Source: Planctomyces sp. (GTDB lineage: Bacteria; Planctomycetota; Planctomycetia; Planctomycetales; Planctomycetaceae). Taken from it: a DNA stretch of 40,523 nt. Location: positions 1-40,523 of the forward strand of contig JAIXUU010000103.1 of assembly GCA_027483405.1 (NCBI GenBank). Reading direction: 5' to 3'. The notes below the pieces were generated by a model. The model was not told where the DNA came from. It searched no databases and saw only the letters and a program-made list of their open reading frames with translations. Of the stretch, positions 2,287-35,905 are shown piece after piece (the first letter of the stretch is position 1; the number at the start of each line of letters is the position of its first letter). Position numbers and translations under genes: made by a program.

Positions 2287-4068
2287 ATGACTCAACTTCG
2301 TTGGCTGACTGGTCTTCTCGGCGCCTCGTCTTGTCCTGCGGGATTGCTGGAATTGGGGCGGGCAGCCATTGCCGGCTCGTTAATGATCTCGGCAACTCTG
2401 GGTTCTGAACCATCGGGAACCAAGTTTGATCCGACGGCTGCTGCGCTGAAGGAAATTGCCACACTGAAAGTGCAGCCCAAGGATTGGCCTCAATGGGGTG
2501 GCAGCACCTATCGCAACAACACACCGGAAGGGAAGAATATTCCCAAAGAGTGGGATCTGGAATCGGGCGAGAATATTCTCTGGGCAGCCGCGCTGGGTTC
2601 ACAGACCTACGGCAACCCGGTGGTCGCCAACGGAAAGGTTTACGTCGGCACGAATAACGGATATGGCTACATCAAGCGATATCCCAAGAATGTCGATCTG
2701 GGGGCACTCGTCTGTTTTGATGAGAAAACTGGGAAGTTTCTGTGGCAGCACAGTAATCCCAAATTGCCCACTGGTCGTGTGCACGACTGGCCTTTGCAGG
2801 GAGTGTGCGCTGCGGTTTACGCCGAAGGAGATAAGCTGTGGTATGTCTCCAATCGTGGTGAGGTTGTCTGCCTCGATGCTGAAGGCTTCCACGATGGTGA
2901 AAACGATGGGCCCTATGTTTCAGAGCCCAACTCGAACAAAGACGAAGCCGAAATCATCTGGCGCGTTGATATGATGGGTCAGCTGGGTGTGTCTCAGCAC
3001 AATATGTGCAACTGCTCGATTACAGCCGTCGATGGTGTGATCTTCGTGAACACCTCGAATGGTGTGGATGAATCGCACATCAACCTGCCGGCTCCCAATG
3101 CACCCAGCTTTATTGCCCTGGATCAGGCGACTGGCAAAGTCCTGTGGACGGATGACAGTCCTGGGGCAAATATTCTGCATGGTCAGTGGTCAAGCCCTTG
3201 CCACTTTGTGCTGGATGGCCAGGCCCAGGTGGTCTTTGGCGGTGGTGATGGCTGGGTCTATAGCTTTGATCCTAAAGGTGATGGAGCTGGCAAAGCCAAA
3301 CTGCTCTGGAAGTTTGATGCCAATCCGAAAGATTCGCTCTATCTGCTGGGTGGACGGGCCACACGCAATCACATTATTGCGACTCCGGTGTACTACGATG
3401 GCTACGTGTATGTGGGTGTTGGCGAAGACCCTGAACATGGGGAAGGGCAGGGGCACCTCTACTGTATTGACCCGAAGAAACGGGGGGATGTCAGCCCGAC
3501 TCTGGCATTCGATAAAGACGGCAAGCCACTCGAAGCACGTCGACTCCAGAATCTCGAACCGAAAAAAGGTGAGGTTGAAAAGCCAAATCCGAACTCGGCA
3601 GTCGTCTGGCACTATGACCAGATCGACAAGAATGGCAACAAAAAATTCGACTTCGAAGAGACAATGCACCGCACCTGCGGCACAGTCGCCATCAAGGACG
3701 ATCTGCTCTTCGTGGCTGACTTCAGCGGTCTGTTCCATTGCCTCGATGCCAAGAAGGTCGATGCCAATGGCAAGCCTGTGGTCTACTGGGTTCACGACAT
3801 GTTTGCCGCTTCTTGGGGTTCTCCACTGATTGTGGAAGGCCGCGTCTATATTGGCGACGAAGATGGTGACATTTCGATTTTTGAACTTTCCAAAGAGATG
3901 AATCTCATCGGTGAGATCAATATGTCAAACGCGGTTTACTCGACGCCGGTGGTTGCCGGCGATGTGCTCTACATCGCCAATAAATCGACATTGTTTGCCA
4001 TCAAGGAAGGTGCCAAACTCGAGGGTGGTTTTAAAGACACCCCTCGTAACGATGAAGTGGCTGATTAA
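2287..4068 (+). CDS. secreted PQQ-like beta-propeller protein with an EF-hand-like loop
   Basis: The start ATG is preceded by AGGAA at 2276-2280 with a 6-nt spacer. The 593-aa product has a hydrophobic N-terminus (residues ~5-40), then DWPQWGGSTYRNN, the planctomycete propeller opening. Propeller repeats follow, with T-G-K-x-L-W/F motifs (CFDEKTGKFLW, ALDQATGKVLW). Between blades, residues 447-458 form a textbook calcium-loop pattern: D447, N449, N451, K453, D455, E458, with F454 at the hydrophobic position 8. Position 6 is Lys instead of the usual Gly. This suggests a secreted, possibly Ca-stabilised propeller. No enzyme activity can be assigned. Its neighbour upstream is another propeller protein in the same orientation, and an iron alcohol dehydrogenase lies 245 bp downstream. 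Confidence 0.85.
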   Translation: MTQLRWLTGLLGASSCPAGLLELGRAAIAGSLMISATLGSEPSGTKFDPTAAALKEIATLKVQPKDWPQWGGSTYRNNTPEGKNIPKEWDLESGENILWAAALGSQTYGNPVVANGKVYVGTNNGYGYIKRYPKNVDLGALVCFDEKTGKFLWQHSNPKLPTGRVHDWPLQGVCAAVYAEGDKLWYVSNRGEVVCLDAEGFHDGENDGPYVSEPNSNKDEAEIIWRVDMMGQLGVSQHNMCNCSITAVDGVIFVNTSNGVDESHINLPAPNAPSFIALDQATGKVLWTDDSPGANILHGQWSSPCHFVLDGQAQVVFGGGDGWVYSFDPKGDGAGKAKLLWKFDANPKDSLYLLGGRATRNHIIATPVYYDGYVYVGVGEDPEHGEGQGHLYCIDPKKRGDVSPTLAFDKDGKPLEARRLQNLEPKKGEVEKPNPNSAVVWHYDQIDKNGNKKFDFEETMHRTCGTVAIKDDLLFVADFSGLFHCLDAKKVDANGKPVVYWVHDMFAASWGSPLIVEGRVYIGDEDGDISIFELSKEMNLIGEINMSNAVYSTPVVAGDVLYIANKSTLFAIKEGAKLEGGFKDTPRNDEVAD

Positions 4069-5516: not shown

Positions 5517-6688
5517 TGACGACGTTGGTATTAAGTATCGCTGGCCTGTTGATCACAGGCTTGTCAACCTCGTCTGCCAGCGAGGTTGCACCGATTTCCT
5601 CAGTCACCAGCCCTGCAGCCGAGTGGCCCAGCTTTCGGCAGAATCTCCTTCAGACAGGAGTTGCCACGAGCACATTGCCTGAAAAACTCGAGTTAGTCTG
5701 GGAAGCTCAACTGGGTGATCAGATTGAGGCCAGTTGTGCGATTTTAGGCGGCAAGGTCTATGCACCCTGTTTATCGGGTCATATTGTCTGTCTCGACCTG
5801 AAGACCGGCCAGAAAGACTGGTCGTATCAGTCGATTGATGAGATTCCCGCGAACAGCTTTGCCCCCGGTTTCAAAGCCCCCGTCACGATTTCCAAGGGCG
5901 TGGTCTATGCGGGTGATGAAGACGGGGTGATGCATGCGATTGATGCCGCGACTGGCAAAAGAAAATGGATCTACAAGACGGAAGGTGAAATCTACAGCGG
6001 GGCTGTTGTCGTCGAAGATCGCCTGCTGTTCGGTTCTTATGATAACGCTTTGCATTGTGTCAAAGTGGAGGATGGGACGGCTTTCTGGAAGTTTGCCACC
6101 GATGGCTATGTCCATTGCACGCCGGGAATTGTCGAAAACTCAGCCTTCATTGCCGGTTGCGATGAACACCTTCGCCGGATTGATCTGCAGACCGGTAAGG
6201 AACTGTCTGTCCTGCCGCTTTCGACCTATCTGATTGCCTCGCCCGCGATTCGTGGTGATCTGCTCTATGTGGGGACTTATGCGAATGAAGTCGTCGCGGT
6301 CAACTGGAAGGAGATGAAGGTTGCCTGGCGTTACCGCCCCAGTGACAAAGAGTTTCCTTTCCATTCGTCGGCAGCGCTGGGTGAAAAAGTGCTGGTGATT
6401 GGCAGCCGGGATAAGCAGATTCATGGGATCGAAATTGCGACAGGCAAAGGTTTATGGACGACTCCGACGCGGGCTCGGGTTGACAGCAGTCCGGCGATTG
6501 TGGACCAGCGAGTTTTTGTTGGTTCCGATGATGGCAATCTTTATCAACTGGCCATTGAGAGTGGTGAAGTGCAGTGGAAGTTTAATCTCGGCAAGTCGAT
6601 TCATGCCGGCCCCGTGGTTGGTGAGGGATACCTCGTGGTGGGCTCGACATCGTCGGATGGGCGACTCTGCTGCTTTGGGAAGAAGTAG
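5498..6688 (+). CDS. secreted PQQ-like beta-propeller (BamB-like) protein
   Basis: The start at 5498 is set by GAGGAG at 5484-5489 with an 8-nt spacer; a second ATG at 5516 would give a TGATG overlap with the dehydrogenase stop but has a worse spacer. The 396-aa product has a signal peptide (hydrophobic residues ~7-25, likely cleavage near SSA-SEV) and then almost only propeller blades with the T-G-K/x-x-W signature (CLDLKTGQKDW, AIDAATGKRKW). It resembles a single eight-bladed BamB-type propeller acting in the periplasm. Coupling to the upstream alcohol dehydrogenase is unusual because one partner is cytoplasmic and the other exported. It may be a binding or sensing protein; no enzyme residues are recognisable. 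Confidence 0.87.
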   Translation: MCIFRLMTTLVLSIAGLLITGLSTSSASEVAPISSVTSPAAEWPSFRQNLLQTGVATSTLPEKLELVWEAQLGDQIEASCAILGGKVYAPCLSGHIVCLDLKTGQKDWSYQSIDEIPANSFAPGFKAPVTISKGVVYAGDEDGVMHAIDAATGKRKWIYKTEGEIYSGAVVVEDRLLFGSYDNALHCVKVEDGTAFWKFATDGYVHCTPGIVENSAFIAGCDEHLRRIDLQTGKELSVLPLSTYLIASPAIRGDLLYVGTYANEVVAVNWKEMKVAWRYRPSDKEFPFHSSAALGEKVLVIGSRDKQIHGIEIATGKGLWTTPTRARVDSSPAIVDQRVFVGSDDGNLYQLAIESGEVQWKFNLGKSIHAGPVVGEGYLVVGSTSSDGRLCCFGKK

Positions 6689-6841
6689 TTCTTCCATCGA
6701 AACCGACCAAAAGAAATGATCCCTCAATTCGCTGCTGGTGAGAGAGTGAGTTAGGGATTAGACTGCGAAACATCAACAGGTTCTGATCTGCTCAGCAGAC
6801 AGAATAGCCGCTATTTTCTGATTTAGGAGCAGTTTCACACC

Positions 6842-7492
6842 ATGATTCGCATGACCAAGGCTCTGGGCACTCTGGCCATACTCGCTGTGATGTCACTCGT
6901 CGGCACAGCGTTTTCTGTTGCAGCCGAGACAGAAGAAGGCTTTAAGCAGCTCTTTGATGGCAAGTCTTTTGAAGGCTGGAAGATCAATGAGAATCCCGAT
7001 AGCTGGAAGATCGAAGATGGTGCGTTTGTCTGCAAAGGCAATCGCAGCCACCTGTTTTATGTGGGTGATGAGAAGCCCTACAAGAACTTTGAACTGAAGG
7101 TTGATGTCTGGACAGAACCGAACAGCAATGGCGGGATCTACTTCCATACGAAGTATCAGGACACTGGCTGGCCCAAGCATGGCTTCGAGTGTCAGGTCAA
7201 CAACAGCTATAAGAGTGATCCACGCAAGACTGGCAGTCTTTATGCAGTGAAAGACGTGCTTGAAGCCCCTGCGAAAGATGGCGAATGGTTTACTGAGCAT
7301 GTCATCGTCAAAGACAAGCATGTCGTGATCAAGGTCAACGACAAAGTCGTCGTCGATTACACGGAACCTGCTGATGCCAAGCCGGGCAAAGATTTCACAC
7401 GCGTTGTCGATGAAGGGACTTTCGCACTCCAGGCACATGATCCTGGCAGTGTGGTGCGCTTTAAGAACATTCGCGTGAAGCGGCTCGACTGA
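6842..7492 (+). CDS. secreted DUF1080 (3-keto-disaccharide hydrolase-type) protein
   Basis: The 216-aa protein opens with a signal peptide (residues 1-28, hydrophobic core [15 protein letters not shown]) followed by a single DUF1080 domain: [30 protein letters not shown] and the closing [11 protein letters not shown]. Some members of this family hydrolyse 3-keto-glycosides, and planctomycetes have many paralogues. The fold is a concanavalin-like jelly roll, so carbohydrate binding is the alternative. AGGAG lies 13 nt before the ATG, rather far; an ATG three codons in is a minor alternative. It is probably its own transcript, since a 153-bp gap separates it from the propeller gene and a terminator follows. 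Confidence 0.9.
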
Positions 7493-7524
7493 TCGACGAC
7501 TTGTAAAGCCTCATGGCTTTTGAC

Positions 7525-7572
7525 AGCGAGCAGATACTTCTCTTAAGAGAAATGTCTGCTCGCTGATTTTTT
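7525..7572 (+). terminator. two-tier intrinsic terminator
   Basis: Arms AGCGAGCAGA (7525-7534) and TCTGCTCGCT (7555-7564) are perfectly complementary. The loop contains a second palindrome, TTCTCTTAAGAGAA (7538-7551). The T-run at 7567-7572 follows on the plus strand. It ends the DUF1080 transcript just before the convergent guanylyltransferase gene. The minus-strand side has no T-run. Confidence 0.85.
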
Positions 7573-7579
7573 ATGGCAA

Positions 7580-8662
7580 TCAGGCCTGTCGCTTTTCGAC
7601 TTCTGCGACGAGAGCTTTAAGCCCGGCTTCGTCACCGCGACGGGCAATCAGAGTGGCCTGAGGCGTGTGAACAATCACGAGATCTTCCACGCCACAAGTG
7701 GCAATCAGGTGTTGATCAGTCGAGTGGATGATGCAGTTGGCAGTCTCTCGACCGACATGCTGACCACGGATGACGTTGGCATGCGTATCGTGAGGGAGAT
7801 GCCGGGCGGTTGCTTCCCACGAGCCGAGATCGTCCCAGCCAAAACTGGCCCGGACAACACCCAGCCTTGGGGCATGCTCCAGGACGGCGTAATCGACAGA
7901 GATCGCGCGGAATTTCAGGAAGACTTCGTTCCATGCGGCGGGTGCCTGGAGTCTGTCAATTGCCATCAATTCATCGAGCACTGCCGAGAGATCCGGTGCG
8001 CTTTTTGAAAGCACATCGAGAAAGGTTTTCGCCTTCCAGACAAAGATCCCACAACTCCAGAGGAACGAACCGGTGCTCAAGTATTCCTTGGCTGTGGCCA
8101 GATCCGGTTTTTCGCGAAAGGAACGAACCTGATGGACACTGGGAGAACCTGTGGAATCATCGGCTGCTTCGGAGTTCAGGTGAGGGCCCATTTCGACATA
8201 GCCGTAACCTGTGGCTGGCGAGGCAGGAACAGCTCCAATCAGCACCATGCAGTCGGGATGTTCATGGACTGTGTGTGAGGCCAGTTGCAACGCCTGCTGG
8301 AAGGCTGGCACATCTTCAATCATGTGATCGCTGGGGAGGATGACCAGCGTGGCTTCCGGATCGCGCTGGGCGATTAATGCCGCAGCGACGGCGAGGCACG
8401 GTGCTGTATCGCGTGGTGCAGGTTCCAGCAATAACTGGCCTGAGGAAAGTTCGGGAAGTTGCGACAGAACCAGCTGTTGAAATGCCTCGCGGGTGGAGAT
8501 CAGCACACGTTCGGGAGGGATCAGTCCAGCCAGCCGCTGGATGGTTTGCTGGAGAAGTGTCTGTTCACCAGCCAGGGCCAGAAACTGCTTGGGGTGATTT
8601 CTCTGGCTGACGGGCCAGAATCTGACACCGCTACCTCCCGCCAGAATGACAGCATGGAGCAT
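7580..8662 (-). CDS. manC: mannose-1-phosphate guanylyltransferase
   Basis: This 360-aa nucleotidyltransferase makes GDP-mannose from GTP and mannose-1-phosphate, feeding glycan and exopolysaccharide synthesis in the cytoplasm. The start is placed at ATG 8662-8660 because the family begins MxxVILAGGSGxRxWP. Here the signature GGSGVRFWP spans residues 9-17 and PKQ residues 24-26. A 91-codon upstream extension is open but does not look like protein of this family. Other family marks are LPSDHMI, SCGIFVWKA and FGWDDLGSWEA near the C-terminus. It is the short type without the isomerase (cupin) domain found in fused ManC/AlgA enzymes. It is divergent from the response regulator across a 417-bp spacer. 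Confidence 0.93.
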   Translation of the reverse strand: MLHAVILAGGSGVRFWPVSQRNHPKQFLALAGEQTLLQQTIQRLAGLIPPERVLISTREAFQQLVLSQLPELSSGQLLLEPAPRDTAPCLAVAAALIAQRDPEATLVILPSDHMIEDVPAFQQALQLASHTVHEHPDCMVLIGAVPASPATGYGYVEMGPHLNSEAADDSTGSPSVHQVRSFREKPDLATAKEYLSTGSFLWSCGIFVWKAKTFLDVLSKSAPDLSAVLDELMAIDRLQAPAAWNEVFLKFRAISVDYAVLEHAPRLGVVRASFGWDDLGSWEATARHLPHDTHANVIRGQHVGRETANCIIHSTDQHLIATCGVEDLVIVHTPQATLIARRGDEAGLKALVAEVEKRQA

Positions 8663-35443: not shown

Positions 35444-35668
35444 ATGTCCGACGGTGAAGATCCGCGTGTTTACTTTGCGGCTGAGCGTACACTCCTCGCG
35501 TGGATTCGCACGGGGCTGGCAATTGTGGGGATGGGGTTTGTGCTGGCGAGGTTTGGAGTTTTTCTGCAGTTGCTGCACCGGCAGGAGGCTGTCAGGCCCG
35601 GGGCCGGTTCGTGGTTAGGGTTGGGAATGGTGGCTCTGGGAGCCTGGACGTTTGCCATTGCGGGATGA
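35444..35668 (+). CDS. DUF202 (YidH-type) membrane protein, N-terminal part before in-frame TGA
   Basis: The 74-codon frame starts at ATG 35444 with AAGAGG at 35429-35434. DPRVYFAAERTLLAWIRTGL is the signature of DUF202 proteins, small inner-membrane proteins of unknown function, followed by helix 1 (IVGMGFVLARFGVFL) and helix 2 (SWLGLGMVALGAWTFAIAG). It ends at TGA 35666-35668, in the middle of the family architecture, which normally has three helices. The same reading frame continues directly after the TGA as the missing part (see next entry). The whole gene would be 154 codons, 35444-35905, with one internal stop. Confidence 0.8.
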   Translation: MSDGEDPRVYFAAERTLLAWIRTGLAIVGMGFVLARFGVFLQLLHRQEAVRPGAGSWLGLGMVALGAWTFAIAG

Positions 35669-35905
35669 CAGCACTTTCGCTTCGTGCAGAGTTTATCACC
35701 TCAGGAAAAGCCGAGAACCTGGGGCCTCCATTACGGTCTCGTTCTGGCCGGTGCGCTGTCGCTCATTTCGCTTTTACTGGCAGCTTATCTGCTCCTCTCA
35801 CAAGGTGACGCTTCGCCCGAGCAGGTCGAGCCACCAAAGAAAGCCCAGTCACCTGTGGTCTCAGCTTTATCATCGACAGAGATGAGCACACAGATCCTCG
35901 GGTGA
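35669..35905 (+). pseudogene. in-frame continuation of the DUF202 gene after TGA
   Basis: Directly after TGA 35666-35668 and in the same frame, the sequence reads QHFRFVQSL then a polar linker and helix 3 (GLVLAGALSLISLLLAAYLL), which is exactly the expected C-terminal third of a DUF202 protein. Family members often have an aromatic or polar residue before the xHxRF/RxVRxL block, so TGA probably replaced TGG (Trp). GTG 35684 could be a restart but has no ribosome-binding site. Possibilities are a recent nonsense mutation, a base-call error, leaky UGA readthrough, or a functional two-helix protein. Coding quality beyond the TGA shows no decay. Confidence 0.7.

Follow-up and report, generated by a model that had tools for sequence, protein, structure and literature searches.

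A probable recent nonsense mutation in the only DUF202 gene of a Planctopirus draft genome

When a reading frame is broken by a single in-frame TGA and then runs on undisturbed, is the gene dying, is the base wrong or is the codon read as an amino acid? This question is raised by a gene of the DUF202 membrane-protein family in the window, which is the whole contig C99 (40,523 nucleotides) of a Planctopirus species or strain, and for which a sequence-only reading had offered a nonsense mutation, an assembly error or UGA readthrough. Our comparison with related genomes points to a recent nonsense mutation (TGG to TGA) at Trp75 of the genome's single DUF202 gene (probability roughly 0.7). The genome of the window (G000) is a draft of 5.36 Mb in 487 contigs with an estimated contamination of 2.74%, and it was compared with three congeneric genomes, namely the finished genome of a sister species (G001), G002 and G003.

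Layout of the interrupted gene

The frame consists of 153 codons, 74 of them sense codons before the TGA and 78 following it in the same frame, and it ends at a conserved terminal TGA (35903–35905) which is followed by C. The first 74 residues carry the conserved N-terminal motif of the family (DPRVYFAAERTLLAWIRT) and score 54.3 bits (1.9e-14) against Pfam DUF202, above the gathering score of 23.4 bits, so that the proposed DUF202 N-terminus was found as described. With an X placed at the stop the full frame reaches 57.8 bits and the match extends beyond the stop. The TGA is the single interruption, and a three-way DNA alignment with two congeners showed no indel and comparison with the congeners no frameshift or other lesion, in agreement with the earlier claim that neither frameshift nor decay follows the stop. 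The same reading had expected a third transmembrane helix in the continuation. A hydrophobic helix is indeed present there, but our hydropathy script gave only two clear helices in the intact orthologue (residues about 16–45 and 93–121), the second one lying after the stop position, and the segment between them stayed below the cut-off used.

A weak profile match to Vtc1 of the VTC complex (structures such as 7ytj, 8i6v and 9umg; E 0.002–0.003) covers the first 33 positions. It is limited to this N-terminal stretch and a polyphosphate function is without support here.

Table 1: Coordinates of the interrupted gene (window positions) and of further features in the same genome.
Feature	Location	Strand	Remark
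DUF202 (PF02656) membrane-protein gene, interrupted	35444..35905	+	two congeners carry an intact 153-aa orthologue
In-frame TGA, followed by C	35666..35668	+	from TGG (Trp75) via one G-to-A transition
Predicted 74-aa product of termination at the TGA	35444..35665	+	conserved DUF202 N-terminal part
Continuation after the stop	35669..35905	+	conserved QHFRFV motif and last hydrophobic helix; 97–98% identity to congeners
Uma2-family gene	G000:C1:208-789 (L095)	minus	in-frame TGA for TGG, codon 60
MauE-like membrane-protein gene	L110:17055-18398 (G000:C242)	minus	TGG-to-TAG relative to G001, codon 343
Dense array of 22 divergent tRNA genes	L068 (G000:C337) 5631-8382
Further tRNA-Trp	L068 (G000:C337) 3189-3259		2.4 kb from the 22-tRNA array
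Six more tRNA genes, separate contig	L069 (G000:C375) 2427-3424

The site in congeners and in the taxonomic family

The orthologues in G001, G002 and G003 (98%, 97% and 59% protein identity) have the same length and are open throughout, including the C-terminal hydrophobic helix that is cut off by the TGA at codon 75 in the window gene. This supports the reading that the continuation belongs to the gene. All three have an in-frame TGG at the site, as the suggested replacement of a Trp codon had predicted, and TGA occurs in the window genome only. Thus, the TGA is a derived G-to-A change, a stop where the congeners have a sense codon. In more distant relatives the residue aligned to the stop is W, C, Y, I, L, V, A, R or K and, judging from these alignments, it is not strictly conserved.

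A search for the TGA in relatives had been suggested, and among the 53 DUF202 stretches which we collected from 43 genomes of the taxonomic family the window gene alone has an internal stop, the other 52 stretches from 42 genomes showing none. A contig collection, searched for the TGA allele by protein and by DNA pattern, gave no hit, although the collection may omit near records. DUF202 is patchily distributed, being present in 43 of 170 family genomes and in 18 of 58 genera, which indicates that it is dispensable. No second DUF202 match was found in the window genome, and a sole copy of a gene with such a distribution makes a loss plausible.

On the branch leading to the window genome nine bases of the gene have changed: five substitutions are synonymous, one creates the TGA, and the remaining three affect two codons of the C-terminal tail. 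This pattern fits a recent stop, but it has little power to distinguish between a real mutation, an error and readthrough. Across the window we counted 652 substitutions on this branch and 759 on the G001 branch, with G+C to A+T changes forming the larger class on both (288 of 652 and 334 of 759, respectively).

Other nonsense changes, stop usage and the tRNA set

For a base rate we aligned about 298 kb of the draft with G001, comprising about 210 coding-like ORFs. We counted three mid-gene nonsense changes in the draft (the DUF202 TGA, a TGA in a Uma2-family gene and a TAG in a MauE-like gene) and none in G001, where the sorting into mid-gene stops and start extensions is our own reading of the flagged list. 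Most other flagged stops were set aside as over-extended starts or as antisense ORFs in which non-synonymous changes outnumber synonymous ones. The Uma2 and MauE-like lesions are both Trp-to-stop changes in accessory genes; the Uma2-family gene is apart from its TGA 98% identical to the G001 orthologue, and its orthologues are open in all three congeners. The mixture of TGA and TAG argues against a reading specific for TGA and fits pseudogenisation or sporadic draft errors better.

TGA is the commonest stop in the window, ending 13 of 27 conserved genes including the DUF202 gene itself, and release factor RF2 is present in the genome with two loci above the prfB cut-off. A first look at the tRNAs scored 150 of 213 candidates, and ARAGORN was then run on the loci with tRNA matches. 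No UCA, CUA or UUA anticodon was called among the tRNA genes of the loci examined, the scanned tRNA arrays included, so that we obtained no candidate for a suppressor tRNA, and a weak tRNA-like match on contig C124 received no ARAGORN call. The main tRNA-Trp(CCA) is normal, with a 5-bp anticodon stem, A9 and G24 (in our own numbering). UGA reading has been linked to the tRNA-Trp changes A9C and G24A and to a top-unpinned 4-bp anticodon stem (PMC13092985), and thus the main tRNA-Trp lacks the suppressor features named there. A second, array-borne tRNA-Trp(CCA) is degenerate, its anticodon stem being mismatched at the loop end; both G001 and G002 have matches to the region holding this gene, and also to parts of the tRNA array region. 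Neither selB (best match 99.8 against a cut-off of 242 bits) nor tRNA-Sec (46.1 against 47 bits) was found above cut-off in the genome, and ARAGORN identified the locus of the best tRNA-Sec match as tRNA-Ser.

Weighing the explanations

A sequencing or assembly error at this base, with TGG in the true gene and its frame intact, is possible but on the whole unlikely. It would suit a draft of 487 contigs with its estimated contamination, and two observations that count against a nonsense mutation speak for it, as the absence of decay after the stop is equally expected under a base error (or under readthrough) and the excess of three nonsense changes over none in a finished genome has the direction that draft errors would give. 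The numbers behind this asymmetry are too small to decide and leave room for such errors. Against an error stand the lack of a frameshift or another stop in some 30 conserved window genes (flagged stops near other ORF starts sit in upstream start extensions), the distance of 4.9 kb between the site and the contig end, and the number of branch-specific substitutions, which is not raised relative to G001.

In Escherichia coli, UGA terminates weakly when the next base is C. A near-cognate tRNA-Trp might read this UGA and yield enough useful full-length protein, and since the codon descends from Trp such misreading would restore the ancestral protein; the intact downstream frame and the mismatch in the array-borne tRNA-Trp would be compatible with it. 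We nevertheless regard this as very improbable, because the gene's own conserved end is likewise TGA followed by C, the array-borne tRNA-Trp region is shared with two congeners which both keep TGG, the similar MauE-like lesion is a TAG, and neither a UCA anticodon among the tRNA genes examined nor a main tRNA-Trp with suppressor features was seen in a genome that keeps RF2 and whose commonest stop in the window is TGA. The absence of an in-frame UGA from the other 52 family stretches is also unlike conserved readthrough, and the retained stop function of TGA, the RF2 loci and the lack of a UCA-anticodon or top-unpinned 4-bp-stem tRNA-Trp among the tRNA genes examined are unlike a reassignment of UGA to Trp. 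Still more doubtful is the wider notion that this species usefully decodes UGA-C as Trp, in which case a planctomycete with the standard code would tolerate Trp-to-UGA changes in its accessory genes; if true, the Uma2-family gene would be another instance. Selenocysteine insertion can practically be dismissed: the UGA is the sole one in frame and the frame goes on, but tRNA-Sec and selB both fell below cut-off and the aligned residue is Trp in the congeners, with Cys in one more distant relative.

A nonsense mutation is therefore the explanation we favour. One changed letter would end translation after 74 residues and leave a truncated membrane protein without its last helix, which is probably non-functional, and the gene would be an early pseudogene, too young for the rest of its frame to have decayed. 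While the comparison shows the change itself, its derived state, the lack of further lesions and the patchy occurrence of the family, we infer that the base is real and the function lost. Here a dispensable gene has lost a Trp codon to a single transition, while the sister species keep the gene intact and the downstream frame is undecayed. This resembles ordinary nonsense mutations and young bacterial pseudogenes, and we found no feature in which it differs from them. The lesion looks like a dispensable gene being lost in the ordinary way (or like a wrong base in the draft), and not like a new reading of the code. Whether it is a nonsense change confined to one species, in a gene that can be spared, or a base error, it carries little weight in itself. 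It may serve as a checked case of how a young pseudogene looks, with an in-frame TGA before an intact downstream frame, in which sister-species comparison, stop usage and the tRNA set together weigh against recoding.
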